Assembly (NCBI GenBank): GCA_002049455.2
Contig: KV918876.1
Location: 152,386 to 216,385, forward strand
From: Porphyra umbilicalis
Taxonomy: Eukaryota; Rhodophyta; Bangiophyceae; Bangiales; Bangiaceae
DNA: 64,000 bases
Direction: 5' to 3'
A model generated the notes under the pieces. That model saw only the letters and a list, made by a program, of their open reading frames with translations. It had not been told where the DNA came from and made no database searches. Below, one piece after another: positions 13,403-46,182 of the stretch. Numbering within the stretch: the first letter of the stretch is position 1; every line of letters begins with the position of its first letter. The translations under genes and the position numbers were made by a program.

Positions 13403-13563
13403 GCCGCGCCGCCGCGAGCGGCCAAGGCCTCCGAGAGTGAACTTGTCCGCGCGTGCGGGCGTTGAGCGCTGTCTCGCTCAGATGACTCCCACGACAAGTC
13501 CCAGCGTCAACAGACAGGTCCAATGAGGGACAAAAGGGACAGCCGCAGCGACCGGCCGTCCCA

Positions 13564-14407: not shown

Positions 14408-17400
14408 CGCCCTCGGGCACGCCCGCCGGTGCCGCCGCGTCCAGACAGACCATGCGGCCGCGTCCACGTCCACGACACGCTGGGAGGGCGGGAGGAGAAG
14501 CCCCCGGTGGTAAGGAAGGCCGTCACGTTGCCGACGGGGAGGATGGGAGGGCGGGGGGGGGAGTTGAGGGCGAGTGAGGCCGTCCCGTTGACGTCGAGGA
14601 CGAGCGGAGGGCGAGGGAAGATGGCACAGGTGAGTATGACAGGCCCAACGGACGTCTGATTCGGCCCCCGAGTGTAGAGGAAAGACCGACGCCGGCCCCA
14701 GGTGAGAACGTCGTCTGCGGTGAGGTTTGACGAGGTGGGCCGATGGGGTTACGGCGATGACAATCATCGCTTGACACCATCGCCAGGTGCCCCTTCGTAC
14801 GGGTGGTCCAGTCGGGCGGTGGGGGCCACGGCGTGGAGGGAAGGACGAGACGGGGCACGACGACGCTGCGATAGCCACAAAGAACAAGGGCCCCCCCGCG
14901 ACGTGCAAACTGTGGGAGCCGGGACATCGGATTGGGACAAGTCGTATCGACCTGCAAAAAGAGGAGTCACTCAGCAAAATACGTGGAGGGGCCGACCAAA
15001 GTCAGCCTCGTCCTGAGGGCTACGCGAAACGGGCGCCGGCTGCGAGGTCTCTGGAGCTGGCCTGGCAGCCCTGGGATGCAAAAAGACGTAGGGGCCTTCG
15101 AGTGACATTCTCAAACGGACGGCTGCGGGCCGCTCCCCCGGAATGGCCTCGTGACCTCATTTGTTTGCCCTTGCACGAAACTGCCCAAGGATGACCACGT
15201 GAGATGTTGCCACCGTTCTCAACGGTCCACTGATGCGCGAATGTCATTGGCCGAGCGTCCCGCACGTTTGCTGACAGCACGTTTTTCCCCGCCGCGTCGG
15301 GAAAACGAGGTGGGCCCATTTTTTAGGGATCTGCCATAGTTCGCAGGTCGTAAACCCACCTGCTCCGTTTTCCGTACACTGCGATCTGAAGAAGAACAGA
15401 AGAAAACAAGTACTCTCGATCCGAGCAGGTTCTCATATGGTTCGCAACCGACGTTGTTGGGTATGCTCTCACGCACGCTCGCTGCACAATGTGCTGCGCA
15501 CAACCTTGTATCGTGTTCGCCGCGGCGGGACACAGCCCAGGCACGACCTGCAATGTTCTTTGCCTGTCCAGTTTCTCGTGCCTCCTGTAGCATGCAGGAC
15601 ACTCCCTTGCTCCATGAGAGTTCTTGTGTCCGAACGCTTGTCCAGCGCGTCCGTAGTGTGATGAAGGAGACGCTAGGCACTTTTGTCGTCAGCACCGGCG
15701 CCTTGCGCATTGGTGTCCAACCCGGCTACGAACGTCTCTGCGACCGCGTTGCAGTCTTTGTAGCAGGTCACAGCTGCACAGAGGAAGACTCATATGCTCG
15801 TAGACTGTACGTGCGTCGTTTAGCACCGAAGTATGTGGCTTACTTGTTTCCTGGGCAATAGTGCGGTTGGGCGGCTGACGATGCTGGTCGGGTCTGACGG
15901 CCGGCGGTGCGCTCGGCGGTCCGTGGCGGTGATGGGGGGGCGGTCGGGGTGGGCGTCGCTGGCGTCGTCGGTGCCACGGCGGGCGCGGCATCAGCGGCTG
16001 TGCAGTGTGCGGCAGGGATATGTGCGCGCGTGGGCGGCGCGGGCGCGGCGAGCTGGCCGCCACGTGGCGTGGCGGCGGCGGCGGTCGCGGGTATCTGTCG
16101 GACAAGAGTAGAGGAAGCGGTTGTGGGGACATGTCATGGCGCGTGGGCGCGCGGTCGACCGGCACGGGCGACAGCAGCAGAAGCAGCATGCTCTGAACGT
16201 TGCAAAAGATAGGAGGGGAGCTGCTTGTATCCTGCACGAAAGAAGAGGGTGTATGGGCCCCCGCTGAAGACGATAGCGACCGCCATGCATCGTCGTGATC
16301 TTCGAGTGAGTGAGACTGCGTCCGCCGCCACAGCTGCGTCCCCAGCGTGCAAGAGCCAGCGGCGGGGAGCTCGTCGCCATGCATGCGTTTCCATTGTCGT
16401 ACGTACTGAGCATCCTCACCTCCAGTCCTCGGCTCCAGGCGGGCGCCCCCCTGCCTCCCCGTCGTAAACTGACCGATCTGACCTCCCGCTCAGCGACAAA
16501 GGCTTCTTCAACGCTTCATGTGACAACCCACGACAGACCGACAGAGTGAGCGGTCCAGTGCTGTTTCCCGGTCTATATAAGCTGCCAGCTGCCGTGGAAA
16601 GCCGCGGGGTAGAATGAGAATGAGTAGCCGGCGCGCCCGACTGCAGATAGGCAACGACCGACCTCTATCATAGCCGCACCTTCAGGAGAGAAGCAGTCAC
16701 TCCGCAGACAGACGCGGGCTGGACTACCTGCCACGGCCAGCGCGTCTCTCGAGATCAAACAAAGCGTAGAAAATCGTGGATTGCTTCCACAGGTGGGGGG
16801 GTAGCTAAGGCGCGCTCCTCCGTCACTGGGATTGCGTTGATGCCCGACCCCAGGCGGTACGGAGCGGCAACGGGAATCCATGGACCTAGGCAGTGGTCTA
16901 TTTATTGTGCTTCTCACAACAACTGGACCTCGGTGCATCAGCTTCCGTTGCAAAATCACTGTTTCATTGGCTCAGGGGGCGGTCAATGATGCTGAAGCGG
17001 ATGTTGCGGATCCAGTTTTTGTGTGAAGCACAATGAAGGCAGGCGCTCTTCGGGGCCTTGTCCGTTGCACCTGCCGACCAAGTCGGGGTCAACCGGCCCG
17101 GCAAGGGCTTGTGCCGTAGTCGCCACCACCGTGGGCGCGGCAAGCTGTACAGTGGACGGTCGGCCTGAGCGACCACCCAGCTGCCGCGCACCGACAGCTG
17201 GCACTGAGGAGGCGCGGACGTGCCGCCGAGGGTGCGATCCGGGGCGCTGAGGGTTCCGCCACGCGGCCATGAGACATCCTGACAAAAAATGAAGTAGCCC
17301 AGTGGGCGAGACAAGTGATTGTGCTGCCACCGTCTCCCGTTTTGCGGTTGGACGGGTCATCAGCTGTCAGCCACCACCGCTCCATTCGACTCGACGCGTC

Positions 17401-27753: not shown

Positions 27754-30700
27754 TCAGCCCGGCGCCTTGGCCAACACCGTCACCACCTCCTCAAACGACG
27801 GTCGCGCCGCCGCCGCCTGCGCCCAACACCGCTGCATCAAGTCCCGGTACAGCTGCAGGCAGTTGGGCGGCGGGGGCGGGCGGTAGCCCTCGTCGACGAC
27901 CCGCCCCGCGACCGCGTGCGGGTCCTCCCCCGGGTACGGGGGCGTGCGGGTGACGAGCTCCCATATCAAGATCCCAAACGCGTACACATCCGACGCGGGC
28001 GTGTGCGGGGCGACGGCCGCGAGGACCTCGGGCGCGAGGTACTGCAGCGTGCCACACAGGCCACCCGCGGCCGACTCGCCCGCGGCCGTCGCCACGGCGG
28101 TCGCCAACCCAAAGTCGCTGACCTTGGCCGTAAACGAGCCGTCGAGAAGCACGTTGGCGCTCTTGAGGTCCCGGTGCACGAGCGACTGGGCGTGGAGGTA
28201 GGCCATCCCCCCCGCCACGTGGGACAGGATGCGCTTGACGACCGGCCACGTCGGCGCCACGCGCGCCTTGTGCAGCACGTCAAAGAGCGTGCCGCGGGAC
28301 ATGTATTCGGTGAGGACCATCGGGTCGGGCAGCGCCGTGCGGGCGGCAACGACGCGGAGCACGTGCGGGTGGCGGAGGGAGAAGAGGACGCCGACTTCGG
28401 CACGGAACGCGGCCACGGCGGCTTCCTTAGTGGCAAGCGCGGGGGACAACTTCTTGATGGCCACCGGCTCGTCTTGGTAGGTGCCCTTAAAGACCTCCCC
28501 AAAGGCGCCCGAGCCGAGCTTCTCGCCCGTCCGCAACCGCCGGACGACCACGTCGACGATCGGCGGTGGGGCGGCCTTTTTGGCCTTGCGACCAGGTGGG
28601 CCGCCGCCGCCGCCGCCGCCGCCGCCCCCGCCCGGCGGTGCGGGCGCCCGGTCGTGGCCAGTCGGATCAGACGGCCCACGGGTGGGGAACCCCCCATTGG
28701 GCGGCGTCGCCGCCTCCCGCCCGTCTGGCCGCCCCCGCCGGTCGTCCTCCTCCGAGCTGTACCCCCCACGGCCCCGCCGGTCGTGGTCATGGTCCTCCAC
28801 GCTGTCCCAGCTGCGGCGGCGCCGCTCGTGGCGGTCCTCCCGGCGGCGCTCCCGATAGTCATCGGCGCTATCCTCCGAGCGGCTGTCCTCCTCCTCGCTG
28901 CTGCTGCCGCGGTCGCGGCGGCGGCGCCCGCCGCCGCGACGGCGGCGGCGCTCGTAGCTGCTCCCGTCGCTCTCGCTGCCCGAGCGGCGGCCGCCGCCGC
29001 CCGCGCTGAGCGCCGCCTGCGCCGCGAGCGCGTCGGCCGCCTCGCACACGGCGCAGTGGCAAAAGGCCGGGTGGGGGCGGAGGCCGGCCGCCGGCGCACC
29101 GCCCGCAACGACTAGCGCCGTCGACGCGGGGGCCTTGGCGCGGAGGCCGAGGTAGCCCCGCCCGTCGGCGGCGCGGCGGCCGCCCTGGTAACCGCCGCCG
29201 CCGACCCCCCCGGCGCCGCCGCCACCGGCGCCCGGGTAGTCAACCTCCCCATCCTCATCGTCATAGCCGCCGCCGCCGCCGCCCTCCATGCCCTCGGGCG
29301 CCGGCAAGGCCAGATACTTGCCCTGGTTGGCAATCGCCTCGAGCGTCACGGGGGAGGCGCCAAAGGCGCTTGCCAGCGCGTGGATGTCGCTCATCCCCGG
29401 TGGCGGCCGGTCGGGCGCGCGCGGCGCTTCGGGCGCGCGCTCCTCCCCAATGCCGACCAAGTCGCCGACCGAGCGGTCGATTTTGGCCTCGGCCTCGGCC
29501 GCGGCGGCAGCGGCGGCCGCCGCCTTGATGCCCGCCTTGGCCGCCGCCTTGGCCGCCCGCGCCGCCTCCTTTTCCGCCGCCCGCGCGGCGCGCTCTTGCT
29601 CCTTGGCCGCCGCGCGGGCGGCGCGGCGGACGTCCTTGGCCGCCGCCCGCTCCGCGGCCGTGTCCACCTCCTCGAGCGTCACGTCGGGCGCGGACGCGTC
29701 GAGGCGCAACGCCCGCACGGGGGGCGGGAGGAGCGGCACGCCCGCCGCCGCCGCGCCGAGCACCTCCCGTGTGCCCCCGTAGCAGCGGTCAAAGGGGTCA
29801 ACCATCTTGCCGCGCGTCACCGCATCGTCGACGCCCTCAATGAGGGCGACGGCGGCGGCGAGCGAGCCGGTGGCCTCGACGGCCAGCGTCGCGGCTGCCG
29901 CGCGGGCAACCTCCCGCGGCTCCCCGGCAATCGCCGCCATCCGGCCGGCGAGGCCGGCCATGGAGTCGGCCAAATCCGCAACGCCCGTCAGCACCTTGCG
30001 GCGGCGGCCGGTGAGGGACGTGTCCCCCGTCGGCGTCACCGCCCACCCGCCCGTAAACGAAAAGGCGGCGAGCATGTGGAAGCGCGCCTTGCGTCGCAAA
30101 AACGCAGCGTAATCCGCAATCTCCCCGCCCGCAAACAGGTAGGCCAGCGGGTGGGCGGCGTCTGGGTCGTCGACGCTCTCCACCGCCTCGCGGCTCCACG
30201 AGTCCGACGCCCACGCGAGGAAGGCGTCGTTGCGGCGCACGAGGCTGAGAAGCGAATCGTCGCCCGCCTCGAGCAGCAGCCGGTGGACAAGCGTCAACGC
30301 TTGGAGCGCCGCGACCGGGTTCTTGGAGAGGGGGCGGCGGAAGAGCGACGCAAACACATCCTCCCCGCGCCCACCATCGCGCACCGACGACAAGACGGTG
30401 GCGTACGCGCGGGGGTCGACGCCCCCGGCCCGCGCGCTGCCGTCGGTCAGCCGCGCAACGGCGCCGTCGAGGGGGTCTGCCGTCCGCGAGGAGCGGCGGC
30501 GGGTCGGCATGCCAAACGGATCCAAGTCGTCCTCGTCGTCGTGGCCTTCGGCGCCGGGCAGTGGCGGCGGCAGGGGCGTGTTGGGCGCAAAGAGGGAGAC
30601 CTGCGCGCTGTGTACATTGGGGGCGGCGGTAGGGGCCCCGGCGCGGAGTTTGGAGACCAAGTCGGTCAGCGACGGGCTGTCGGCTGCGCGGCCGCCGGCG

Positions 30701-31677
30701 TCCTTGTCATCGTCATCGTCGCGGTCGTGCCCGTCGCCGCCGCTGCCGCCGCCGCCGCCGCCATTGCTTGCCGCCGCCGTGGCAGCCGCCGCCGCGGCGG
30801 CGGCAGCCGCGCGCTTGGCCTCTCGCTTGGCTTCCCGCTTGTCCTTCTTCCCTCCCTCCCCACCGCCGCTGCCGCCGCCGGCCGCCTCCCGCAGCTGCGC
30901 CAACGACGGCCGCCCGGCCGAAGGCCCGACCGCACTGGCGAGCGCCGACGCCAGCACAGGCGGCAAGCCGTTCGGCAATTCCCTCCCCGTCACCGCCGCA
31001 GCGGCCACGGCCGGCGCCCGGCCCGTCGCCAGCGCGGCGAGGAGCACGCCCACGTCGTACACGTCGTCGGCTTCAGTGAGCTCCGCGTTGGACGAGCCGA
31101 TGGCCACGCGCTTTGGCCCAAAGCCGCCGAGGATGGCGCCCGTCGCGTCTGTGTTTTTGGGCCCGCCCCCCACGAGAAACACCGTGTCGACGGCCACGTT
31201 GCCGTGCGGCGAGCCGCCCGGCATGGCGAGCAGCGCCGCCGCCACATCCCGCCCGACGGCCGCGACGGCGGCGGCCGGCAACGCCGGCGGCGCGGCCGCC
31301 GACGCCTTTTTCGACGACTTGGACGCGCGGCGGGGCGTCGCGAGTTCGGACAAGAAGGTGATGGACGGCGCGTCGGGGGAGCGGTCGACAAACACGTCGA
31401 CGAGCTCCAAGACCAGCGGCGACGCGACCGACGCTTTGCGCCACGTGGCCGCCTCGTCGACAAGCGCCTCCACGTCGTCGACGGCGGGCACGACGACGCG
31501 CTTGGCAACGAGCTGCCGGGGGGGGTCGCCGCCGGCCCCACCGGCGGGCGCCGCGTCCACAACGTGGACCGATACGGGGCCGCGAGCGGCGCCGAGGGTG
31601 CGTACAAAGGTTAGCGCCCACTGCCGGCCAGACGCGCCGGCGAGTTCTAGCGTCGCGCCGGCGGCGCCCCACGCCAT
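27754..31677 (-). CDS. Pseudokinase-ANTH-TKL kinase fusion protein
   Basis: 1307 residues, single exon, from an ATG at 31677-31675. Residues about 20-275 look like a degraded kinase fold. LVAKRV retains a lysine, but HRD is replaced by HGN and DFG by GFG, followed by a helix-F-like DVYDVGVLLAALATG; this suggests a pseudokinase. Residues about 395-540 resemble an ANTH/AP180 N-terminal domain (PLSKNPVAALQALTLVHRLL), which binds phosphoinositides and clathrin-coat components. An Ala/Lys/Glu-rich coiled coil (about 655-740) and an Arg/Ser/Glu-rich stretch (about 895-985) follow. Residues about 1042-1305 form a complete TKL kinase with GSGAFGEVFKG, VAIKKL, HRDLKSANVLL, DFGLA and APEVL. A role coupling endocytic coats to Raf-like signalling is inferred. 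The TKL domain is certain, ANTH likely, the pseudokinase moderately likely. Confidence 0.82.
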   Translation of the reverse strand: MAWGAAGATLELAGASGRQWALTFVRTLGAARGPVSVHVVDAAPAGGAGGDPPRQLVAKRVVVPAVDDVEALVDEAATWRKASVASPLVLELVDVFVDRSPDAPSITFLSELATPRRASKSSKKASAAAPPALPAAAVAAVGRDVAAALLAMPGGSPHGNVAVDTVFLVGGGPKNTDATGAILGGFGPKRVAIGSSNAELTEADDVYDVGVLLAALATGRAPAVAAAAVTGRELPNGLPPVLASALASAVGPSAGRPSLAQLREAAGGGSGGGEGGKKDKREAKREAKRAAAAAAAAAATAAASNGGGGGGSGGDGHDRDDDDDKDAGGRAADSPSLTDLVSKLRAGAPTAAPNVHSAQVSLFAPNTPLPPPLPGAEGHDDEDDLDPFGMPTRRRSSRTADPLDGAVARLTDGSARAGGVDPRAYATVLSSVRDGGRGEDVFASLFRRPLSKNPVAALQALTLVHRLLLEAGDDSLLSLVRRNDAFLAWASDSWSREAVESVDDPDAAHPLAYLFAGGEIADYAAFLRRKARFHMLAAFSFTGGWAVTPTGDTSLTGRRRKVLTGVADLADSMAGLAGRMAAIAGEPREVARAAAATLAVEATGSLAAAVALIEGVDDAVTRGKMVDPFDRCYGGTREVLGAAAAGVPLLPPPVRALRLDASAPDVTLEEVDTAAERAAAKDVRRAARAAAKEQERAARAAEKEAARAAKAAAKAGIKAAAAAAAAAEAEAKIDRSVGDLVGIGEERAPEAPRAPDRPPPGMSDIHALASAFGASPVTLEAIANQGKYLALPAPEGMEGGGGGGYDDEDGEVDYPGAGGGGAGGVGGGGYQGGRRAADGRGYLGLRAKAPASTALVVAGGAPAAGLRPHPAFCHCAVCEAADALAAQAALSAGGGGRRSGSESDGSSYERRRRRGGGRRRRDRGSSSEEEDSRSEDSADDYRERRREDRHERRRRSWDSVEDHDHDRRGRGGYSSEEDDRRGRPDGREAATPPNGGFPTRGPSDPTGHDRAPAPPGGGGGGGGGGGPPGRKAKKAAPPPIVDVVVRRLRTGEKLGSGAFGEVFKGTYQDEPVAIKKLSPALATKEAAVAAFRAEVGVLFSLRHPHVLRVVAARTALPDPMVLTEYMSRGTLFDVLHKARVAPTWPVVKRILSHVAGGMAYLHAQSLVHRDLKSANVLLDGSFTAKVSDFGLATAVATAAGESAAGGLCGTLQYLAPEVLAAVAPHTPASDVYAFGILIWELVTRTPPYPGEDPHAVAGRVVDEGYRPPPPPNCLQLYRDLMQRCWAQAAAARPSFEEVVTVLAKAPG

Positions 31678-33195
31678 GGTTGGGGCAGGAAGGGGAGGGG
31701 GAACGACCAACCACCCAGACGGCAAAACGCAATGCGGGCAAAAGGGGGGATCGCACAGGCCAAAGCGCCCGAGGGCGGGCCGAAAGGATCAAAGTCAGGC
31801 CAGCGGGTAGGGGGGGGACGCGGGGAAGCAGAGGGTGGCGATCGCAGTCACCAACAGCGCCAGACACGTAGCCCGCAGCGCATGGCATCCACGGTGGTTG
31901 CACAACCAAACCCAGCCGCCCAGCAATGACGCCAGGGTCAGCCGAGGCGTGACGTGCAACCTCACCGCGATTCTGCGGAACATGCTCCCTACTTAGCCTA
32001 CATGTATTTGTTGCCATTGCACGATTGGTCCTCAACTGTTGCAGTACAAGTCGAGCACAAAGAACTCCGAACCCCGAGAATCAATTGTCCGGCCCCACGA
32101 ATCTGAGACGTTCTATTGGCTCTCCAACGGCCAGTTCCGTGAAGATTCAAGATTCTTCTTTTTCTTGAGATTTTCTTCCGTTCCAGTCCGTATCAGATGG
32201 GCAACGGGCGCGAATCGTTGCGATATCGAGATTTTTTGGGAGATACGCAGAAAAGTGCAGAAAAACGAAGGCGTCAAATGGCGATACCCAGGCACAACAG
32301 ACCAGCGCCTGCCCCGCGGCACCGGTACACTGCGGTGACAGCTGAGACCCACCACAGAAACGAACATGCACCCCACGTCGGCCCGGCACGAGGCGCCCGC
32401 CCATACCGGCTGGCGATGGCGCCACAGCCGAAGCCGTGTCAGATGTCTGACGGCGGCCGTCGTCGCGGTGGTTAAGTATGGGTCCCAAACCACGGGACAA
32501 CGGCACGCCAGAACGCCTCTAACATCCGCAGAGGAAGAGGACCCAAATGCCGCGCCTTCCACTGGTGGTGGGAGCGTGCTGCCTGCAGGGGTGTGCCGGC
32601 TGGCACGGCTCCAGCCACCGTGTTGTATGTTGTTTTCAGGGACGGATCTCGACCAGCCGCTTGGTCTGTCCTCTGACTACCCTCGGGCGAGGCGGTGCGA
32701 GGTCTTGACACATTCCCCGCCTCGACGCTACGGGCAGTCGCACAACGGCTCTCCGCAAGCCGGCCGCCAGGTATTGTAGCGGCTCAGCGCTGCCCCCGCG
32801 GTGCAGACAGCCCCTCTTTGGATGGACACAACTTACCGCGCGGGAGCAAACGTTTGCCAGCCATGAGGCGCCGCCAAGCCTGCATGCTCAGCAACTTGGG
32901 CCGGCGCGGGCCGGGCGGGGCCCCCCGCTGTCGGTGCGCTCCGAACGGCAGGGGTCTTGGTGGGGTGCCGCAGCTCCCCGACGGTGGGGCGACGAGCAGA
33001 ACGACATGGCCGCTGTACTCGTTGCAGCATGGTGCGCCACGGGCACTTTCTCCGCCACAGGAGGAGCCACGACCAATGAGACCTAGGATGCCACGACGAC
33101 CCATGGCCCAGGGGCGCACGGAGCGCGACCTGCCGGCCATCCACGGAGGTGCGCAGCCGTCGTCTTCGCTGTTCAGTTGTGTGCGCATCAACTGG
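31678..33195. other. 1.5-kb intergenic region, divergent promoters
   Basis: This lies between the ANTH-kinase gene (minus) and the cystine-knot gene (plus). An AT-richer segment at about 31990-32330 (gattcttctttttcttgagatt) stands out and resembles decayed repeat DNA. No coding content was recognised. Confidence 0.4.
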
Positions 33196-33203
33196 TATAA
33201 GAG
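33196..33203 (+). promoter_or_regulatory. TATA box of the cystine-knot gene
   Basis: TATAAGAG, 204 bp upstream of the ATG at 33400. If transcription starts about 30 bp downstream, the 5' UTR would be about 170 nt. The position and orientation fit this gene; no experimental support. Confidence 0.5.
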
Positions 33204-33399: not shown

Positions 33400-33714
33400 A
33401 TGGCCCCCGCCCTCCGCCACGGGCACGTCGCTGGCCTGGTAGCCCAAACGCTGGCGGCGGTCCTCCTGGTGGCGGCGTCGGTGGCCCCCGCCATGGCGAC
33501 GCCTCCCTTGGCGGCCGCCGCAGACGCGCGCCACCCCGCCGAGCCCGTCAACGCGGCTACCGTGCCCGGCGCGTCTGCGCGCGTGCAGTCGGCCGCGCGC
33601 GTGCAGGTGGACCCCCCGTGTTTGCCCCGCGGCGCCACCTGTTGGGGCCGCCCCGAGCCCTGCTGCGGCGGCCTGCGGTGCTACAGCATCATCATTACGT
33701 CGCGCTGTGGGTAG
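33400..33714 (+). CDS. Secreted cystine-knot (knottin-type) peptide precursor
   Basis: 104 residues from the ATG at 33400; the frame is open further upstream but that part has no motifs. Residues about 12-32 form a hydrophobic signal peptide ending at a likely AMA cleavage site near residue 33. A cysteine-free Ala-rich pro-region extends to about 70. All six cysteines lie in the last 31 residues: C74, C81, C88, C89, C94 and C103. The spacing is C-x6-C-x6-CC-x4-C-x8-C, the classical inhibitor-cystine-knot framework. Such small secreted knots include defence peptides, protease inhibitors and channel modulators in plants, fungi and animals; nothing here identifies the target. A TATA box lies upstream. 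Processing would release a peptide of about 30-35 residues. The pattern is precise but the gene is short, so coding is likely but not certain. Confidence 0.68.
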   Translation: MAPALRHGHVAGLVAQTLAAVLLVAASVAPAMATPPLAAAADARHPAEPVNAATVPGASARVQSAARVQVDPPCLPRGATCWGRPEPCCGGLRCYSIIITSRCG

Positions 33715-34417
33715 CCGGCCGGCGTGCCGGGGGGGGGGGGTCAGGTGGGGAGGTTGGCGGGGGGGGGGGGGCGGGGGGGCAGCGGCATCGGTGATACCCC
33801 ACCGGCCCTCTGTTCGGCGTAGGCGTCGATCCCGAGTGCGGGGCTGGCACCGCGCAGCGGTTCTTGTCTGGTAGCGGGTGGAAGAACGACGGTGGCGAGG
33901 GACCACTGCCGGCTGGCAAACCGTGTAATGTTTTCTCTCTGTTGCTCAGTGACCTCGGGCTGCTTCCCCCCGCGCTACATTGCTTGTACGCTCACCTTCC
34001 CCCCTCCTCTCCCAGCCTCCCCAAAATATGTCTCGCAGGGGTCAATACGGGGGGAAACCGCTTCCAGTACTGCCCCGCCCGCGACCAAGGCATGACCGGC
34101 AGTGACAGCCCTACAAAACGCGCGGGTCTGCGCCATCCGTGCCGCATCCTCAGGACAATCAAGTGGAGAGTGAAGCAAAAAGAGCCCTGCACAGAAGAAA
34201 TCCACACCCAGCGAACCGCCCCGCGCAGCGGTTCGCCCCGCGCCATCCGTACAGACCCACAAAAAAAGGAGCCATCGAGAGTGCGCCGCTCGACCCCGCC
34301 CAATGGGGCCAGCGTGGCGCGCACCGCCCTGGCACACCCCCCGGCCTCTCGCCGAAGCCGCAAACCCCCCTCCAGCCCCCGACAACCCCCCCCCCCCCCC
34401 CTCCCCCCCCCGGTCGC
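33715..34417. other. Convergent spacer with G and C runs
   Basis: Long G-runs at about 33729-33738 and 33761-33770 and C-runs at about 34387-34411 flank otherwise unremarkable sequence between the 3' ends of the knottin and purU genes. No gene seen. Confidence 0.45.
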
Positions 34418-35584
34418 TCAATCCTCAAACACCACCGTCTTGCGGCCAAACACAATGACCCGATCGTTGAGGTGCCACCGGAGGGCGCGCGCGAGCACGA
34501 CCCGCTCCAAGTCCCGCCCCTTGCGCACGAGGTCTGCCACCGAATCCCGGTGCACCGCCCGCGTCGTGTCCTGCTCGATGAGGGGCCCCTCGTCCAACTC
34601 GGCCGTCACATAGTGCGCCGACGCGCCGATGCGCTTGACCCCCCGCGCGTGCGCCTGGTGGTACGGCCGCCCCCCCGTAAACGACGGCAGCAGCCCGTGG
34701 TGGATGTTGATGACCCGCCCGGCGTGGCGCTCGCAAAAGCCCGCCGACAGGACTTGCATGTAGCGCGCCAGGACGACCACGTCGACCGACCGCTCCACCA
34801 TGAGCTCCTCCAGCGCCGCCTCCTGCCGCGCCTTGGCGGCGGCCTTGTCACCGTCCGCCCCCACCTCAATGGGCAGGTGCACAAACGGGACATTGAACAT
34901 GGCGGCGACCGGCGCGAGCACCGCGTGGTTGGATACCACTGCCGCCACTTCACAGCGGAGCTCCCCGGCGCGCACGCGCATGAGCAAGTCGACGAGGCAG
35001 TGGTCGGCGAGAGAGACGAGCAGCACCACCCGCTTGACCGCCGACGCGTAGCTGAGCGTCCACTCCATTGCGTCGCGGGCGGCGAGGTCGACGAGCGCCG
35101 ACTCGACGACGCCCATGTTGGCCGCCCCGACGTGTACCTCGGTGTAGTCAAAGACGAGGCGCTGGAAGTAGCGGTGGCAGTCCATGTCACTAAACTGCTC
35201 CGAGGTGAGGATGTTGCAGCCGTACCCGTAGAGCAGCTGGCCGAGGGAGGCAACGACGCCCTTCTTGTCGGGGCAGGAGATGAGGAGGGTGGCGAGCTTC
35301 CGGGGGGGGTCGGGCTCAGCCGCGCCGCCCGACGTGGCGGCCGACGCCGTCGGGTCGGGCGCCGAGGGGGGGGTCGTCGGCGCCGCCGCCGTCGTGGCAC
35401 GTGGCGGCCGGCGGACGGCCGCGCGGCCGAGGCTGGTGCGGCAGCGGGCGGCCGCCCGGCAGGCAGCGGTCGACAGGCGGTCGGCAGGGCGGCCGAGACG
35501 GGCCGCGGCGGCGGCTGCCACAAACGCCGGGGGGGGCGCCCCCGCCGGGCCGCGCCGCGAGGCGGGAGCAGGCGGCCACGCCAT
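34418..35584 (-). CDS. purU: Formyltetrahydrofolate deformylase, organelle-targeted
   Basis: 388 residues from an ATG at 35584-35582. PurU hydrolyses 10-formyl-THF to formate and THF, balancing one-carbon pools and supporting photorespiratory glycine metabolism in plants. An ACT domain begins near residue 95 (TLLISCPDKKGVVASLGQLL), and the formyltransferase-type catalytic domain spans about 180-375. The catalytic set is present: N and H in INIHHGLLPSF (about residue 293) and D in ELDEGPLIEQD (about residue 331). Conserved HLPI, ARYMQVLS and GAS(A)HYVT are also seen. The catalytic part equals the full bacterial length of about 280 residues. The extra about 95 N-terminal residues are Ala/Arg/Pro-rich with almost no acidic residues before residue 65, as in mitochondrial or plastid transit peptides. 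The enzyme call is firm; the compartment is inferred. Confidence 0.93.
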   Translation of the reverse strand: MAWPPAPASRRGPAGAPPPAFVAAAAAARLGRPADRLSTAACRAAARCRTSLGRAAVRRPPRATTAAAPTTPPSAPDPTASAATSGGAAEPDPPRKLATLLISCPDKKGVVASLGQLLYGYGCNILTSEQFSDMDCHRYFQRLVFDYTEVHVGAANMGVVESALVDLAARDAMEWTLSYASAVKRVVLLVSLADHCLVDLLMRVRAGELRCEVAAVVSNHAVLAPVAAMFNVPFVHLPIEVGADGDKAAAKARQEAALEELMVERSVDVVVLARYMQVLSAGFCERHAGRVINIHHGLLPSFTGGRPYHQAHARGVKRIGASAHYVTAELDEGPLIEQDTTRAVHRDSVADLVRKGRDLERVVLARALRWHLNDRVIVFGRKTVVFED

Positions 35585-36521
35585 TGTCGCGACGAGGCGA
35601 GCAACCACACGCACCAAAAAGCAGGGGGGGACGGCGGAGGAGAGGGGAGGTGAGGCGAGGGGGGATGAGGGACAAAGTGCAGACCGAGAGCACTCGCCCA
35701 AAAGCAACACGGTCGCGGTGGCGCGCCGCTTGGGGCGGGGCGCTCGGCGACAGGTCGCCGCCAGTCGAGGGGCGGCCAAGGTGGGCACGGGGGCGCTTGG
35801 CGGGCACGGCCTTGCAAGGGCGGCGGGGCACCCACCGCAGCACCCGTACGGGTGCTCACGGCCGTGTGCGGGGCGCTGCCGGGGACCACGCGCGGCCGCG
35901 GCGCAGATACCGCGCCGCGGGGGGCGGCGCGGGGACCCCGCGGCGCGGCCAACGGGGCGGAGAAGGTTGCGGCCAACGCCGCGGGGGGCGATGCCGCCCC
36001 CCGATTGGCAGATCCACCGCGAGGCTCCCGGCGGGCGCCGGCGGACGGGCACGGCGGGGCGCCCCTGTCGCCATCGGTCGGAATCGGGGTGTGCGCTGGC
36101 GGCCGCCCCCGCGGGTGCCGACCGGCGCACGCGGGTGGGCGCGCGCAGCGCAGCCGGTGGTGGGCGGGGGAGGCCCGCGGCCAACGCCATGGGCGCCACC
36201 GTGGACCATGGTGGGCGGGATGGAGGCGCTGGCAAGCGGGATGAACACTGGCGCCGTGGTGCCCCCCGTTGCGCCGCCCGTTGCGCCGCCCGTTGGCCAG
36301 AGTGTCTGCGGTGCCGTCTGGTGCATGGCGGAGAAAGCCGGCGCCGGCGCTGTGGATTGGTGGGCAGGTACAGGGTGCGCCTGGTCGGTGACGGCGCCTG
36401 CGCCCCTGCGGCCAGTGGCCGTGTTGTTGTTGCTCCCTGTTCACCACACAGCATCCACGCGTTCCGCTCTTTCCCCCGCTCACCGCCCTCCCGCTGCCCA
36501 CCCCCCCCCCCTCACAACGCG
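35585..36521. other. 5' flank of purU, 3' flank of the BLTP2-like gene
   Basis: GC-rich sequence with several incoherent overlapping frames. A short tandem duplication (cgttgcgccgcc) occurs at about 36268-36295, and a C-run at about 36501-36510. No promoter motif was identified. Confidence 0.4.
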
Positions 36522-39500
36522 TCAAGCCCTCAAAAAGTTCCCTCGCCGCGATGACACCGCCGTCTCCGCCACGGGCTTGTCCCCATACAGCAGTTGCAAG
36601 CACTTGGCGCGCCGCGCCTCCTCGTGCTGCGGCAGCGTCATGCCCCGCCCCATGGAGCTGCCGTCCGTCGACTCGACGCTGTCGCCGGCACCCGCCGCCG
36701 CGCCGGCGCCGCGCGGCCGCGCCGTCCGCCCGTCGGCGGCCGCCACCTCACGCCCGGGGGTGCCCGCCTCGGCGCCCCCCGCGCCGCCGCCCGCCGCCCA
36801 GACGGTGGCCGCCCCCCCGCGGGGTGACGGCCCCGCGTCCCCATCGTCGTCTCCACCGCTGGCCGCGTCGGGCAGCGCCGGCCTCGGGGACCGCCCAATC
36901 TTGGTGAAGAGCGAGTCGACGACCGCCTCTGCCCCGGACAGCATCCGGTCGCGCGTGCCGCGGATACCAAAAAGCTTGAGTTTGGTGTAGTTGGACGCCG
37001 CCCGCTTCGCCACCGTGAAGATCATGTCCTGCTTGACGCGGTTGAAAAATAGCTTCCACGTCCACAGCTGGCTGCTGTACATTTGGCTGGGCGCGCGCAC
37101 GGTCAGGTCGCGGAAGTCGAGGAGGCCCTTGGCGTCGGTCTCCTTGGACTTGTACGAGGCCGTCAGCTGCACCTCCCCGATGTACACGTACTTGAACAGC
37201 ATTGTGCTCGCGCCGCGCGCCTGCATCGCAACAACGTCGTCGGCGCGGGAGCGGGCGTGAAGCGGGCCAGATGCAGCTCGGCGCGTCGCCTCGCCCGCCT
37301 CCCCGTCGTCCGCAGCGGCGGCTGCCGACGCGGCAGCCGCTCGGCGGCGGCGTATGTAGGCCGCCGTGCGCGTCGCAATGCGCACAGGCGCAGATGACGA
37401 CTCGGATGCGTCTGGCCCCGTGTCCGCCACCTCTACATCCAACTCGTCTGACGGGAAAATGAAGCGGAAGAGTGCCTGGAAGAGCCGGTGCGTCATGGCA
37501 GCTGTCAGCGGTGCAATGTTGATGGTCAGCACCTCGTACACGGGGATGCCCCCGACGCGGTCAATCTGTAGCGCATACCACTTGAAGGCGACCGCCGAGC
37601 CGTCGGTTGACTTAATGGCCGACCGCTGACTGAGGGGCGACACCGACAGTGCCGGCCGCGAGGGTCGGGCACCACCACCCCCACCCCCGCCACCGTCGCT
37701 GCTCGGCCCATCGCCCGACTGCACGGCTGTAGCCGCGAGCGATGACGGCTCGCCCCCGGCTGCCGCTCCCCCCGTCGCAGCGCACCCTGCCCCTTGGTTG
37801 TGTACGACGCTACGGTGGTAGAGTGAAAAGTCTGGTTGCAGGATCGACCGGAAGTACCCATGCTTCATCCGGTTCTTAACGTCCACGTCCGCAAACGTAA
37901 ACTCCTGCGACGACCCGCGGCCAAGGTAGAAGACATGCCGACACACCAGGTCGTCGAGCGTCAGCTCGACCAGCGGCGGTCGGTCGCCAATCAGCTCCCG
38001 GAGCGTCCATGATGAGCGATCGAACGAGTAGGATAGGTACATGCTCGTGTAGAGCTCCCCGCCGCTGTCGCCGTCTGCCCCGCCGCCACCGCCCGGTCCA
38101 TCACCGACGCCCGCAGGCGACGCCAACGCCGTGTCTCCCGACTTGTGTTCTTTTCGCAGGTAGGTGGTCAGTGCCTTGAGCTTGGCCTTGTACCGGCAGC
38201 GGCAGGCAAACAGGTCAGTGTCGCCCGCTTCGGGAAGCACCAGCCCCGCCATCAGCTCCTCTTGTGCCGTATCGAGTGCGTAGTTGAACTGGTGTAGTAC
38301 GTTGCGAAGGCGGCGGCGCTGGTCGACCAACTCCGCCGTCGACACGTGGCCGCCGGCCAGCTGCAGGTTGTAGCGCAGCGCCGACAGCTCTTCATTGACG
38401 TCGATCGACAGCGGATCCCGCTGCATCAGCACCTTGATGATTACGTTCATGAACGTCTGCAGCTGCGGGGAGGTGGTAAACATGTGCAGCGCCGGTACGG
38501 AGATGTAGAGCGTCGACGGCCGCACGTGCTCGTCCGTCGCAGTTCCGTCACCCTCGTCGTGCGCCTTGTTGGTCAGGTACACCATGTCAAGCGCGAGCGG
38601 GTCCGTGGTCAGGCGTGTCAGCGGCAAGAGCTTCTCGTCGGGCAATGTCGCGGCCTTGGGCGACAACCACACCGAGTCGACGTCGAAGTCATCCACCCCA
38701 TCGATGAGCGTGTAGATGTGGCTCTTGTCGAGATGCACCCGCGTTTCTGACTCGACAAAGGTGTCAGCGCCGCCGACCTGCGTGTCCTGCTCGACAGTCT
38801 TGCGGATGAAGCCAAGGTTGGCCCAGTCACTCGCGAGGAAGAGGTAGCCCTTGGTTTCAGGTGACCCAAACAGCACCTGCGGGTTCGAGATGCGGAGCTC
38901 AAACTGGGCGCGGCTCTCCAGGATCCGCCGGCCGGCGACCGCAACGGTGCCGCTGGGGGAGGTGGTCGCGTCGGCGCCACCTGACCCCGCGCCGCCATCG
39001 CCTGCCTCGATGACGGGCACGTCAGAGAGTACCTCCCCCGTCACCGGATCAATCTCGTCAAGCAGCTCTAGCAGCGTCCCTGCCCCAGGCCCATCCCCAC
39101 CACGGCGGCCACCACGCCCGCCACCCCGACGTGGCGCGTACGACGTCGAGTGGCGGGTCAGCGAACCTTCCGAGCCGACCACCGACGCAGCCTCGCTGCC
39201 GACCTCTCCCCCCGTACCGACCGTGCCCGACGTCATCAGCTCTGGCCCAATGTCGTCTTCCAGCTCGTCATCGTCTGGGAAAAACGAGTCGTACTCGTCC
39301 TCATCTGGCTCCCCATCTCCCAGCGGAAGCGATTCGACGTTGGACGCCCGCATCGTAAAGCTCTTTTCCGCAAACGCTTCCGGCCACGTCCACACCGAGT
39401 TGCGGCGTGTCGGCGACCACACCATCCGTACGTCGTGGATGCCGAGGCGGAGCTCAAACTCGGCGGTTTCGAGCTTGGAGCCCCGTTGAAAGCTGTCGCT

Positions 39501-42500
39501 CTGCGAAAAGGTGTGGAAGGGAGACGTCGTCATGTCCATTGTGCGCCCAAAGCCGGAGCTGCGCGGCCGTGACACGGCCGCCGTCGAGACACGATGCGAC
39601 GGGTCGTCCGACAGTAACACCTGCGAGATGGAGCAGAGGAAGCCCATATCATGCTCGTCGCCGCCCAAGTCCAGGTCCGGCAGCCGGATGCGGGTGTGGA
39701 GGTCCCGCACGTCGACGACACGCTTGGTCATCTCCACTCGCCGCCCGGGCAGCCCCGTGATGGGCATCACCACGCGCACGCGGTTCATGACCAGGTCGAC
39801 GGACGTGTGTCGCACAGACGCAAGTAGGCCATGTCCGACCTCCAGGTTGTTGTACACCATCACGTTGAGGTCACGCGTCGTCACGCTCACCCGCACCTTG
39901 TGCATAATCGAGCCGGTGGTCTCGGACGCCGGCGGTTTACGGCCTGGTTCGGCCCGCCGGGCGGCCGGCAGGCAGCTGACTTCGGCTTTGGAGAGCATCC
40001 GGATGACCCGCCGGAGCGTCGTGATGCCATCCGAAAAGAGCACGCTGCAGCCGGCGGGCGCAATCCACCCCTCATCCCGCACAGACGCACGCTTGGCGTG
40101 CGTCGTGCTCGACGCGCTCGACTGGAACTCGGCGGCGGCCGCAAAGCTGCTCGGATCTGCCGGCGGCTCCCGGTCAAGCGCCGGCGCCGGCGGCGCAGCA
40201 CGCAAGGCACCACGGCTGCGCCGGCGGCCGCTTGACGCAGCTGCCTCGCCGCCCTTGACAGGCGTGCCCTGCGGACCAGCGCTCTCCACGGACCGGTCGA
40301 CCCGACCGCTGTTGGCACGGCTGGCACGGCGGGGCGCAACGGAAGCGGCAGCCACGGCCGCGTCGTCCGCCGCCATCGTGTGGAGGGCAGAGTGGGAGCT
40401 CGCCCGGCGAGACGCGCGCGGGCGCGCAACGCCTTCGTCCCCGACACCACCGCCACCACCGGGCGGTCGATCCTGCTGTTGCTCCTGCTGCGGCTGCGGC
40501 TGCGGTTGACGGTACCCGCCGCCCCTTCCACCCGCAACTGAAGTTCGCTGCGCGGCCACGTTGCAGCTGGCCTCATAGCCCGGCTCCCCCGGGCGCGGCA
40601 CGTGCGCGTGCGCGACGCGCACGTCGACGCGCAGCTCCATGCCCACCGACCGCATCGACGCGTACGAGTCGTGCCCGACAATGGACGACAGCGGCGTCTG
40701 CCACGTCGTGTAGTCCCCCGCGGGCGACACCGTGATTGTCGCAGGGGTCTCATCCCACCATAGAATGGATTGGGTGAGAACGCCCCCGTCGGGCGCTGTC
40801 GCCACAGGCGCGGCGGCGGGCCACGGCGAGGTGGACTCCCTCGCGCTGCGCGGCACGCCAATGTGGGTCCGCCCGTCCGACGAACGGAAGGAGCGGTTCC
40901 AGGCAGAGGCGACCGGCGTCCCCGTCGACAGCCCTGCTTGCCGCGCGTGAAGGGCGGACCCCTCCCGGTCCCGGCCCGCCGGCAACACCGCCGGGAATGG
41001 TAGGCAGTAGTGGTCCGTCGCGTCACCCGACGCGTGCACGGACGGGATGGGCGTCAGCAGCACCGCCACAGGCGCAAACGTGACGACCGAGCGGCGGTGG
41101 ATGTGGAAGACTGCCGGGCGGATGACCAACCGGTCACCCGAAAATTCGATCGGTGCCGGCGTCGCCGCGTCTTCCAGCCGGGACATGACGTACAGGAGCC
41201 GGTCGGCGGCCACGTCAACATAGTGGTCCGTCAAGGTATAGGGCGACGAGGAGCCGCCGAGGCGCCCGCGGAGCTTGGTCGCGGTCACCCGTAGCCCCCC
41301 GTGCGTCGTCAGGCGCATGGTGTCAAACCAGGGCAGACGCGGGGAGGGATCCTTGCTGCCGCCGCCAAACCGCGCGCACGCCTTGGTAAAGTCCATAAAA
41401 ACTGGCACGAATGCCGTGTTCCAAACCGCTTGCAGGCGGCCGACCTTGAGGTGCGCGTCACAGAATAGCTTTTGGGAGCCAAGGCCCTTGACGAGCGTCG
41501 CGCGGGAGCGGCGGCCGAGCGCGACCGTGGTCGTTGCCCAGTACGGTGCGACCGTGCGCGGGGTGGCCAGTCCAAACACCGCGTCTGCGAGCGTCGCCTC
41601 GTCAAACGACACAAAGGCGGTCGGGTAGTCCCGAAAGCCCAGCCGCGCGCCTCGGAGCACGGCCGACACGGAGCGGAAACCGAGGTCCGCCCACCCCGCC
41701 CGGTGGTCGCGTGGGTGGGTACCCCGCTCCGGCATGAAGCTGTCGAGTCGCCGCACCTCGTCGAGTGACGCGGCCGACCCCCGCCGCATCGTCTCGGCGT
41801 CCATGACCATGGAGAAGTTCGCAGACGCGAGCGTCAGCGACGCGAGCGCCGCACTCTGCAACGGTGGTAGGTGGCCGTCGGCAATGATAAGCGGCGGCGA
41901 CGCCGCTGCCAGCTGCTGCGCGCGGTCCACATAAATGTCCGAGTCCCGCTCCTTGAGCTGCGCGAGCAGCGTGTCGCCGAGCTCCGCCAGTTGCCGGTCG
42001 GAAAGCTCCACGAGTTTGTCCTCCATGAGGTCGTTGCGGTGCAGGCGCTCCCGCGTCTCATCTTGCATGAGCGGGAGCATGCGGGTGAGCCACCCGTTGA
42101 GGGGGTCGTCCTCCAAGTACACCTCCACATCCGACAGGGAGATGTGGAGGTCGGGCATCGGCTTCTTCTTGCCGGCCGAGCCGCCGCCAGCGCCGCCGAC
42201 AAAGCGAGGGGCGGCGGCGGCAGAAGAGGTCGTTGACGACGCCGACGCCGACCGCGGGGTGGGCGCCGCACCGGACTCGACGGGGGTGTCGCGTGCCTCG
42301 GCCCACTCCTCGTCGCTGCTTGCGTCGGTGGCCACAAAAACCCCGGACGATAGCGGGCTCTCCGGCAAGGTAGCGCGCGAGCCGCCAAAACCACTGGCGC
42401 CCTTTCCTCTGCCACCCGCAGCGGACGGCGGCAATGGCGAGGGGCTTCTCGCGCTTCCCCCAACGGTTGCCGTCTCGACGGCCACCGCACCGGTGGCCAC

Positions 42501-45500
42501 CACCGCCGCTGCCGTCGCTGCCGCCGCCGCCGATGCGCGCGCCAGCTTCCGCGCCTTGGCAAGCGTCACCACCGCCTTGATGCGGATGATCCACTCGTTG
42601 AGGCGCGTGCCAAAGGCAAAGTCGTGCGGGAGCACCGACCGAACGCCCACGCCGTGGATTTTGATCGCCTGCGGGCGGGCGGTCGGCGCCATGGAGACGA
42701 GCGGATTGTCCAGCCGGATGGTCGTCGCATGCGCAAACGGCACGTCTTGGAGGAACCACGTGACGCCCGCCACCTCCCACACGGGGTCGGCGGGGGACAT
42801 GGCCGCAACGCCAACGACCGACGCGCCGCTGGACGGGCCGTCGGGGAAGGAGGCCTTGACTTTGGCGTCGCTCAGCGTCAGCGTCAACGACCGCAGGGCG
42901 GTGAGGGTGCGCTCCAGACCCGACGCGGTGGCGGTGCCGGCCGGCCGCGGGCGGCCGCCGCGGGCGCCCCCGCCGGCGGCGGCAGACGTCGCGCCGCCCT
43001 CGCGGGGGCGCTTGGCGCCCGCCACTGGCGCCAGCGGCGGCGCGGCGGCGACCGGGCGCCGTGGCCCAGACGGGCGACCGGCCGCGGGGCCCCCACCCCC
43101 CGCCGGCCACCGTGACAGCACGAGACCGACCGGCGCCGCGTCGTCGCCAGCCCGACCCCCCGCGCCGCCGTCATCGTCCCCCCCCCGCCACGCCGCGCGC
43201 GCGCCGCGGACCGCGTCTGGGATTGAGTCAAAGGCCGTCTGCAGGTCATAGTCCCACCGAAAGTCCGCGCCAGCCACGTGCATGGCGACCCGGCTCTCCG
43301 CGTTGACCGACCCCGCCACGCGGGCGACCTTGGCGGTCGTCCCCACCCCGTCGGCGGTGACGTGGAGGAGGGAGGTGCTCTCCACCGCAGCATCGACCAT
43401 GATGGGTGCCTCGAGTGCTTCGAGCGTCGACGACGCCGCCGTGCCGGGGCGGACGAGGGCGGGGATGTGCACGCGGCTGACGAGGACGACCAGCGCTTGG
43501 GTTTCGAGCGGGGGACCCGGCGCCGCCAACGCCGGCCCGCCCACGGGCGCCGTGGCGGCGGCCGCTGCCGCCGTCGCCGCTGCCGCCGCCGCCGCCGGCC
43601 CACCGTCGTTCATCGGTGGCGGCGGCACCGGCACATCCGCCGCCGGCATTGACGCCGGCAGCGGAAACGGGAGCAACTCGGACCCCGGCCCCGTCAGCAC
43701 CGACTCGTCCGCCCGTGGTAGGCCCGCCCCCCCCGCCCCATCCGGCCGTCCGACCCACAAAAAGCACCCATTCCGCACGTCCACCGACGCCTCCATGCGC
43801 GGGCGGGCGGCCAGCCCGCCCGAAAACATAAACGACCGCGCCCACCGGTCATGTTCCGACGGCGCCGCCGCCGCCGCAGCGTCCGCCTCGGCCTGCCGCG
43901 CGGCGGCTAGCAACGCCCCACGGCTGCCGTCCCAGCTGTGCCGCGACGCGGGCGTCGACGCGGCGAGGGCGGGCGTCGGCCGCAGGGCGGCGGCGGCGAC
44001 GCGGAGGCGCGCGAGGAGGGTGGCGAGGGCGACCGGCTCGGCGCCCGCCGCCACGCCGTCGACGGTCGCTTCGAGGCGGACCACGTGCGCGGCCGCCACG
44101 TTCACGTCGATGGACCCGTGGAGCCGCGCCACGTACACGGTCGCCGCGGGCCGCGACGCGGCAATGGTGGCGACGGCAGCAGCTTGGGTGGGGGAGGTGT
44201 GGAGCGCGTCGGTAGACGCCGAGGAGGAGCACCGCCCGTCGGTCGACGGGCTCGAGTCCCCTCCGTCGCCCCCGTCGCCCCCTGCCGACGCCGACGCCGC
44301 GGCGCTCGGCGGCGTCACGCCCGGCCCGCCCCCCCGCGCCGGCCCCGGGGCGCTCGCCACCGACGACAGCTCGTCCGACGCAATCCCCACGGAGGATTCG
44401 GACGCGGGGTCGTCGACGGGAAGGCCCGCCGCCGCCGCCGCGGGCGCGGTCGTTGCGGCCAATGGCAGCGCCGGCGGCGACGGCGGGGCGGCTAGGCCGC
44501 CAACCGCTGCCACCGCGGCTGCCGCCGACGCCGAGGCGCCGGCGGCAGCGGCCGCCGCGGCGGCCGCCGCCACGTCCCCTGCGCGCCCCCCGCCGCTGGT
44601 ACCGACACCGTTGCGGCCGTCGACTGACAAGCGCATCCCCGACGACGAGGAGGAGAGCCCCCCGACCCGCGTGCGCGCCGCTGGGTCGGCGTAGCACAGC
44701 CGGTGGAGGGTGCGCTCGTCAAGGGCCTCGGACGCGAGGGAGCCCGCCCGGAAGCCGTCGAGGGTCAACACCGACCGCGATGCGAGCTGCTGGTGCTGCT
44801 TGTCCGTACCAAACGACTTGATGCGAAGCCGGGTGATCGTCACAAAGATGCCGTCCTCTGCGGGGGGGGGCGGCGATGACGCGTCGGAGGACACCCCCGC
44901 CGCGGCTGCATCCGCGTCGCCGCCCGGGAGTATGCCCCGCTCGCGCCGCACCGCCCCTGCGAGCCCCCGTGCCCGCCCGCTGCCGTCATTACCGCCCCCT
45001 TGCCGTGCGCGACCCCACGGCGTGGCCGCCGAGCTGACGGGCGCCCCCCCACCCCCCCCCACCGGCGGTGCTACCGCCCGCACGGTCACCTCCTCCACCG
45101 TCGCCCACCCGTCCCAGTAGCGAATCGCGCCCTGCGGCCGCGGCCGCGGCAGCACCGGGATGAAGCGGGGGAGCTTCCCCTGCAACGCGCGCGTGTGGCC
45201 GGGACACAGGTGCAAGTCGAGGCCGCCCGTGGAAGCGGTGACCACCGGCCCCGTGGCCGGCAAGCCGCCGCCACCGTCGCCGCCGTCGCCGCCCGCGTCC
45301 CCCCCCAGGCACACGGCCACGCGTGGCACCGCCACGTACAGGCGGAGGTCGTCGAGCACCCCCGAGCGGCGCCCCTTGAGCGGCGTAATCGCATTGGCGG
45401 CGACCGTGGCGGTGACGACAAACGTCGTTGGCAGGGTTACGGAGGCCGCTGACCGGGGCAGCGTGACCGACAGCCGCTCCGCAGACAGCGCAAAGCGGCC

Positions 45501-46182
45501 TGCGAGGAGCCCCACCGGTCGCGCCTCGAGCACCAACCCAGACGCGGCGACGGTCAACGCGCCGGGGCGCTCGACAGACAACTCGTCGAGACGCACGTGG
45601 AAGGCGCGGAAGCAGACAATGGTGACTTCGGTGGCGGTCGTGCGCGCCACGTTTTGGATGTAGTTGGCCCACCCGCCCGGCGCCAAGTCGGACGGCGCGC
45701 CAAGCGGCGGGGGGGGGGCGCCGCCGGGCCCCCCGCGGCGGAGGCGGCCGCGGCGGCGGGCGGCACGGCGCCATTGCCGGCGGTGCGGCGGAGCAACACA
45801 CGTTGGAGTAGGCCGCCCACCCCACGCCCACCCGCGGGGACTCCCCCCGACTCCCCGCTGCCGGGTGCCGCGCCGGCGCCACCCCCCAGTCGGGATCCCC
45901 CCCCCCCGCCACTGGTGGTAGGCGCACCACCACCCGCGTCGCGTGCACATCGACGAGCGCCCCACGGAGTTGCTCCGATAGCAGCGCGCTTAGGCGCGTC
46001 GAGACGGTCACGGACAACCCGGCCGGCAACAACTCTGACGCCCCGGGGGAGGCGGACAGCTCGACAGAGCCGGAGCGCACGCGTACGCTGATGGACAGGC
46101 GACGGAGGAGGAGCGCGACCGCGGCGGCGGCGGCGGTAGTGATGGTGGTCAGGACCGCGACGGCCACCAGCAGCGCCCCCAT
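36522..46182 (-). CDS. BLTP2/SABRE/FMP27-type bridge-like lipid transfer protein, about 3,220 residues, N-terminal frame break
   Basis: The ATG at 46182-46180 opens a hydrophobic anchor (residues 2-26, MGALLVAVAVLTTI...), then RRLSISVRVRSGSVELSAS, as at the start of hydrophobic-groove lipid-transfer proteins. The main frame continues uninterrupted from about 45720 to the stop at 36522 in one exon. NYIQNVARTTATEVTIVCFRA resembles the early repeating-groove segment of the family. Near residue 1350 VEVYLEDDPLNGWLTRMLP, then MEDKLVEL, corresponds to the EDDPFE...D.K+.EL block of SABRE/hobbit/BLTP2. RDYPTAFVSFDEATLAD follows in the FMP27 GFWDK-like region, and the C-terminal LWTWKLFFNRVKQDMIF block fits the family. 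Such proteins bridge the ER to other membranes and move phospholipids. The start and the main frame do not join directly: between them lie an 11-G run (45897-45907) and a 10-C run (45709-45718). One lost base, or one added base in each run, restores continuity. Confidence 0.83.

Follow-up and report, generated by a model that had tools for sequence, protein, structure and literature searches.

A candidate gene for a secreted knottin precursor in a red algal genome

Background

Whether the knottin scaffold extends to the red algae is the question raised by a short open reading frame (ORF) in a 64,000-nucleotide stretch of contig KV918876.1, deposited under Porphyra umbilicalis; this whole stretch is referred to below as the window. 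Knottins are defined by disulfides I-IV and II-V crossed by III-VI, a scaffold that spans about 30 families (PMC2984590, in excerpt) and has been reported in fungi, insects, plants and animals (PMC4503680, in excerpt). The ORF, at 33400..33714 on the forward strand, has a coding-type codon choice and encodes a chain with a six-cysteine framework of this kind, for which an inhibitor cystine knot (ICK) fold is predicted. The best explanation, to which we attach about an even chance of being right in full, is that a red alga, probably a member of the Bangiales, encodes in its nuclear genome a putatively secreted knottin precursor, most likely a defence peptide.

Architecture of the predicted precursor

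The locus comprises the following features:

33400..33714, forward strand: ORF of 104 codons plus stop for a putative secreted knottin-like precursor (translation, synonymous codon score, G+C content at third codon positions)
33400..33498, forward strand: signal-peptide-like segment, residues 1-33 (rule-based test only; AlphaFold2 helix)
33499..33618, forward strand: cysteine-free pro-region or linker without a dibasic site, residues 34-73 (sequence; low model confidence)
33619..33711, forward strand: knottin-like domain, residues 74-104, with loops 6-6-0-4-8 (cysteine positions, AlphaFold2, fold and sequence matches)
33196..33203, forward strand: TATAAGAG, possible TATA box, 204 bp upstream of the start codon (sequence; weak)

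Translation bears out the organisation proposed from the letters of the DNA, namely a precursor of 104 residues with a cysteine-free middle and six terminal cysteines spaced 6-6-0-4-8. Cysteines occur only at positions 74, 81, 88, 89, 94 and 103, all within the last 31 residues, and the chain stops one residue past the last of them; both their order and the loop lengths are of the knottin type. The presumed mature part contains four arginines against one glutamate, and has a hydrophobic hairpin tip, YSIIITS.

By a rule-based test the start is signal-peptide-like: R6 is followed by an uncharged 12-residue core, LAAVLLVAASVA, with a mean Kyte-Doolittle value of 2.68, and then by a cleavage-like site, AMA|T. 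In 257 kb of real sequence (the window plus 20 loci, with 615 bases counted twice) there are 717 ORFs with 60-160 amino acids, counted from the first ATG, and 12 of them satisfy the same hand-made rule. An Ala-rich N-terminus containing Arg and Ser might instead target the precursor to the plastid or mitochondrion. We regard this as very improbable, since the uncharged core is long and leads into a signal-peptidase-like site, and three disulfides fit the secretory route; furthermore, the precursor lacks Phe altogether, the residue with which transit peptides for red algal plastids are said to begin.

The ORF starts at the first ATG downstream of TATAAGAG, with none in between. A TATA-like motif is indeed present where the sequence-only reading had placed it, but as promoter evidence it is weak: the window contains three copies of TATAAG where 1.45 would be expected, and at least three occur in 21 of 100 shuffles.

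Predicted fold and sequence matches

When residues 72-104 were modelled by AlphaFold2 as a single sequence, without relatives, the predicted local distance difference test (pLDDT) score was 89.0 and the predicted template modelling score 0.49. The model has a knottin fold with a cystine-stabilised beta hairpin, and 22 of its 27 structural matches are ICK peptides, as judged from their titles; hence the structure prediction suggested for these residues came out in favour of an ICK-type fold. In the model of the whole precursor residues 4-31 form a helix, while residues 31-70 are of low confidence (block pLDDT about 51-55). The best Foldseek match was asteropsin G, a knottin of a marine sponge (probability 0.95, E 0.13), with 39% identity over 31 columns; it differs in coming from an animal host, and as a sequence match it reaches just E 1.2. 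A fold search of viral structure models returned 12 matches, the best having an E value of only 0.37.

Searching the sequences of the PDB with the precursor gave nine matches at E values up to 10, of which the best was Ado1 (0.0021) and one an unrelated ATP synthase subunit, aligned mostly to the pro-region. The mature 33-mer gave 12, led by 2n8f (1.3e-4) and Ado1 (6.3e-4); from their names we take 11 of these to be ICK peptides, the remaining entry, 2mxm, carrying no name. Four shuffles of the 33-mer in which the cysteines were held fixed produced 0, 5, 0 and 9 matches, with a best E value of 0.071, so loop residues appear to contribute to the ICK match, four shuffles being few.

The peptide therefore resembles knottin and ICK peptides generally in its small secreted-type precursor, its six cysteines with CC as III-IV, and its predicted compact fold with a C-terminal hairpin, and differs from them in its red algal host, in having disulfides that are presumed, and in matching no Pfam family above the cut-off. 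The best sequence matches are to the Ptu/Ado1 peptides of assassin bugs (PF08117) and the spider hexatoxins, Ado1 aligning over the first five cysteines and the corresponding family, Toxin_30, ranking first among the Pfam matches to the mature part. However, the match stops before the last loop, the score stays under the gathering cut-off of 24.5 bits (17.9 for the precursor, 19.0 for the mature part), and the peptide has no venom context; the likeness is likely to be convergence on the scaffold. The plant antifungal knottins (PF11410) were not listed for the peptide at E values up to 10, in a search where the HMMER filters drop weak matches. NCBIfam gave only three matches, far below cut-off and all to the Ala-rich part.

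Coding potential

The reading frame is already open from 32677, extending over 345 codons, hence its openness is little proof of a gene. G+C at codon positions 1, 2 and 3 is 0.75, 0.66 and 0.89 in the ORF, and 0.66 at all three in the preceding 723 bases, read in the same frame. In 30-codon windows, the third-position value (GC3) is 0.87-0.93 inside the ORF and 0.50-0.87 before the ATG; four stretches of the window bearing Pfam domains, used as a coding yardstick, have values of 0.84-0.92. Third-position G or C is a published habit of the Bangiales (PMC7423979, in excerpt).

A synonymous codon score, computed given the amino acids of the ORF, was 16.3, close to the 17.0 (SD 6.0) expected from the coding style of the window, whereas a null built from its base triplets averaged -22.7 (SD 9.1) and never reached the observed value in 20000 draws. 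Taken by itself, the mature part had a score that 51 of 20000 draws from this null reached. The margin narrows when the null is given the base composition of the ORF: the scores of the whole ORF, the mature part and the rest were then reached by 10, 70 and 50 of 4000 draws respectively. The ORF's synonymous codon choice and GC3 thus look like the coding style of the genome, which supports the earlier proposal of a coding gene.

Paralogues and relatives

The assembly searched comprises 83.8 Mb in 665 contigs. The paralogue check that had been recommended was run on it with the precursor, the 33-mer and family profiles, and none was found. The precursor hit eight places, itself and seven others with E values of 0.037-9.7; the latter were rejected as paralogues, all seven alignments proving on inspection to be partial matches or composition matches to the Ala/Pro-rich part, with the six cysteines never aligned. 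The mature 33-mer found only itself. Of the profiles, PF08117 recovered the peptide gene (E 0.17) and a 32-amino-acid frame (E 6.3) that runs antisense to a retroelement frame. That locus (L011) contains, in the frame from 561 on the forward strand, a 729-codon retroelement polymerase-like sequence that by eye is also RNase H/integrase-like. Nothing above the cut-off was found in the genome with PF02950 (one place, E 1.45), PF11410 (one unrelated place, E 9.5) or PF07740 (five places, best 0.63), and PF10530 found nothing in either this or the control genomes; the searches with PF02950 and PF10530 are insensitive to so short a domain, given that neither lists the peptide gene itself. Across 51 loci (289,497 bases), the CC-type ICK spacing was present in three, namely those containing the peptide gene. 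The gene appears to be single-copy, with one exon, although distant paralogues might have escaped these searches.

Gene or chance

An alternative that has to be weighed is that the ORF is not a gene, but a chance open frame bearing a chance cysteine pattern. Besides the extent of the open frame, several results weigh against our preferred explanation. With the composition-matched null, the codon score is 5.36, short of the 12.21 (SD 5.15) expected of coding sequence. By plain codon log-odds, a measure that also takes in amino-acid composition, the ORF has 0.078 per codon, around the 5th percentile of coding windows (0.058, their median being 0.30); among 823 open windows in any frame it falls between the 75th and 90th percentiles. 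The log-odds of the mature part are negative (-0.249), which its Cys-rich make-up may explain. Foldseek E values were never below 0.001, and the Pfam matches all fall short of their cut-offs (Toxin_30 19.0/24.5 bits, Conotoxin 17.6/25.1, Toxin_35 14.1/26.8), that to Toxin_35 being uninformative because one of the four shuffles also matches this family, at 0.013. Nor were relatives confirmed in two contig collections containing no other eukaryotic genome, among 592 pattern stretches in genome contigs and 86 in viral contigs.

Against an origin by chance stand the coding-like synonymous codons, the confident fold predicted from a single sequence, the better matches of the 33-mer than of its shuffles, and the rarity of the framework. 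An order-4 Markov simulation of 83.85 Mb contained 687 frames with loose ICK spacing and 141 of the CC-type, yet no exact framework and no precursor-type ORF, defined by exactly six cysteines, their terminal position and a hydrophobic start. Because the criteria were set post hoc and the null is devoid of real genes, this is a bound rather than a formal P value. In the 257 kb of real sequence, no CC-type match other than the peptide gene occurs among 11 looser ones; six short ORFs have only six cysteines, near the C-terminus, and in the peptide gene alone is the start more hydrophobic than 2.3. We therefore consider a chance ORF improbable, albeit less so than organellar targeting, and continue to prefer a genuine knottin precursor gene.

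CBM1 domains of the same genome

Weak fold matches to cellulase binding domains prompted a search of the genome for CBM1. Five of the 39 Foldseek rows were cellulase binding domains or cellobiose dehydrogenase chains, and 4qi4, 4qi6 and 4qi7 each end in a CBM1. In the genome, 11 matches, spread over four contigs, exceeded the cut-off, and one further match fell short of it. At least four CBM1 domains in the genome have six cysteines, with the arrangement C-x6-C-x9-CC-x5-C-x10-C on contig C125 and C-x6-C-x9-CC-x4-C-x9-C, three times, on C350. Two six-cysteine domains score 27.7 and 38.6 against a cut-off of 20.6. With a profile built from these four six-cysteine repeats, the strongest matches were fungal CBM1 structures (best 7.3e-9); agelenin, an ICK peptide, was also matched, though weakly (0.083). 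The CBM1-repeat proteins (loci L036, L038, L040 and L043 on C125; L039, L042 and L044 on C350; L037 and L041 on C487; L045 on C113) are probably related to the Porphyra polysaccharide-binding wall protein; that of Porphyra purpurea has four apparent polysaccharide-binding domains (Liu et al. 1996, as cited in PMC3160888, in excerpt). These domains qualify the earlier statement that no knottin has been characterised in such organisms: our literature search, largely at the level of titles and abstracts, found no red algal knottin, but the same genome holds six-cysteine CBM1 domains.

The peptide could be related to the six-cysteine CBM1-type domains found in wall proteins of red algae, having become shorter and diverged, and could act as a small wall- or polysaccharide-binding protein. 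It has the same cysteine order, the CC pair and a first loop of six residues in common with them, and the best of four pairwise comparisons exceeds shuffles with fixed cysteines (p 0.015). However, the other three pairs do not stand out (p 0.13, 0.48 and 0.53; sum 0.139), the profile score is reached by 305 of 1994 shuffles, and hhalign assigns a probability of 0.6%. CBM_1 (PF00734) is not among the Pfam matches of the peptide at E values up to 10. Loop 2 of the CBM1 domains has nine residues against six in the peptide, loop 4 has 4-5 and the last loop 9-10 against eight, while the CGG motif, replaced by CWG, and most of the residues of the aromatic face are lacking. Membership of CBM1 is thus not supported, there being no significant overall similarity beyond the cysteines, and a diverged wall-protein domain strikes us as an unlikely explanation, if slightly less so than a chance ORF. 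Descent from a CBM1-type domain is a testable idea, for which the sequence comparison gives no support beyond the cysteines.

Genomic context

Contig C665, evidently a plastid of the red-lineage type, carries ten of the assembly's 11 matches to phycobiliprotein families. The proposed red algal host agrees with these matches and with the G+C content of the window, about 68%, compared with 64-68% in Bangiales and 37-57% in other red algae (PMC7423979, in excerpt). The window itself lies on a 216 kb contig with eukaryotic genes, and the peptide ORF is placed between a kinase ORF, whose first ATG is at 31677, and the end, at 34418, of a PurU-like ORF:

27754-31788, reverse strand: kinase ORF with 1344 codons and a PK_Tyr_Ser-Thr match (E 4.5e-59), pointing away from the peptide gene
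34418-36511, reverse strand: PurU-like formyltransferase ORF, a eukaryotic neighbour
36522-45989, reverse strand: Hobbit/FMP27-family ORF, a single open frame of 3155 codons (E 3.5e-47)

The last of these is apparently a giant gene that contains few introns, if any. The kinase ORF also has a faint ANTH-like match, under the cut-off (E 0.00068). Elsewhere in the window there are long tandem arrays at 6234-7651, of a 202-bp unit in seven copies (98% alike), and at 13549-14409, a 54/260-bp array; Rfam and tRNA scans of the window found nothing.

Sense-strand G runs lie directly past several stop codons: those of the peptide ORF (G12 and G13, 33729-33771, forward), the PurU-like ORF (34386-34411, reverse), the Hobbit-family ORF (36501-36511, reverse) and an ORF ending at 58621 (G19, 58622-58640, forward). 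In the 257 kb, runs of G9 or longer were found within 60 nt downstream of 4/30 coding-like, 23/1031 flat and 23/788 other stops, and the equivalent C runs at 0/30, 8/1031 and 8/788; the classes of stop are rough, and the peptide's own is not among the four coding-like ones.

Proposed function and significance

If the ORF is indeed a knottin precursor gene, residues 1-33 would direct the chain into the secretory pathway, and the pro-region would be either cut away or kept as a linker. Formation of disulfides I-IV, II-V and III-VI would then yield a highly stable peptide, about 31-33 residues long. Most likely this would act extracellularly in defence, directed at microbes or grazers, with loops that bind to a target such as a membrane, a wall or an enzyme. 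A defensive role is favoured because small cationic secreted knottins frequently defend their producers in plants, and no recognisable module surrounds the gene. To our knowledge, little is known of the peptide defences of red algae.

Alternatively, the secreted knottin might inhibit proteases or amylases or serve in signalling, and not be antimicrobial or directed at grazers. The scaffold serves such roles elsewhere (PMC4503680, in excerpt), the plant trypsin inhibitor SOTI-III is among the structural matches, trypsin inhibitor 3 (4aor) is a weak sequence match (E 3.2), and loop 1 exposes an arginine (CLPRGATC). Conversely, no inhibitor family was matched by sequence in Pfam at E values up to 10, and there is no known receptor or target. 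We judge this the least unlikely of the alternatives to the defence peptide, while still giving it a low probability.

As to its origin, a tentative proposal, plausible yet falling short of likely, is that this is a free-standing red algal knottin gene, apparently present once and with no kin detected. It would have arisen independently or else through shortening of loop 2 in one of the lineage's own six-cysteine CBM1 wall-binding domains. Were that true, the knottin scaffold would reach the red lineage, and there would be a concrete route from a carbohydrate-binding mini-domain to a knottin. If real, the peptide would extend the range of the scaffold and provide a stable peptide from a group of edible seaweeds, and the six-cysteine CBM1 domains of the same genome would make it testable how the knot comes to arise repeatedly.
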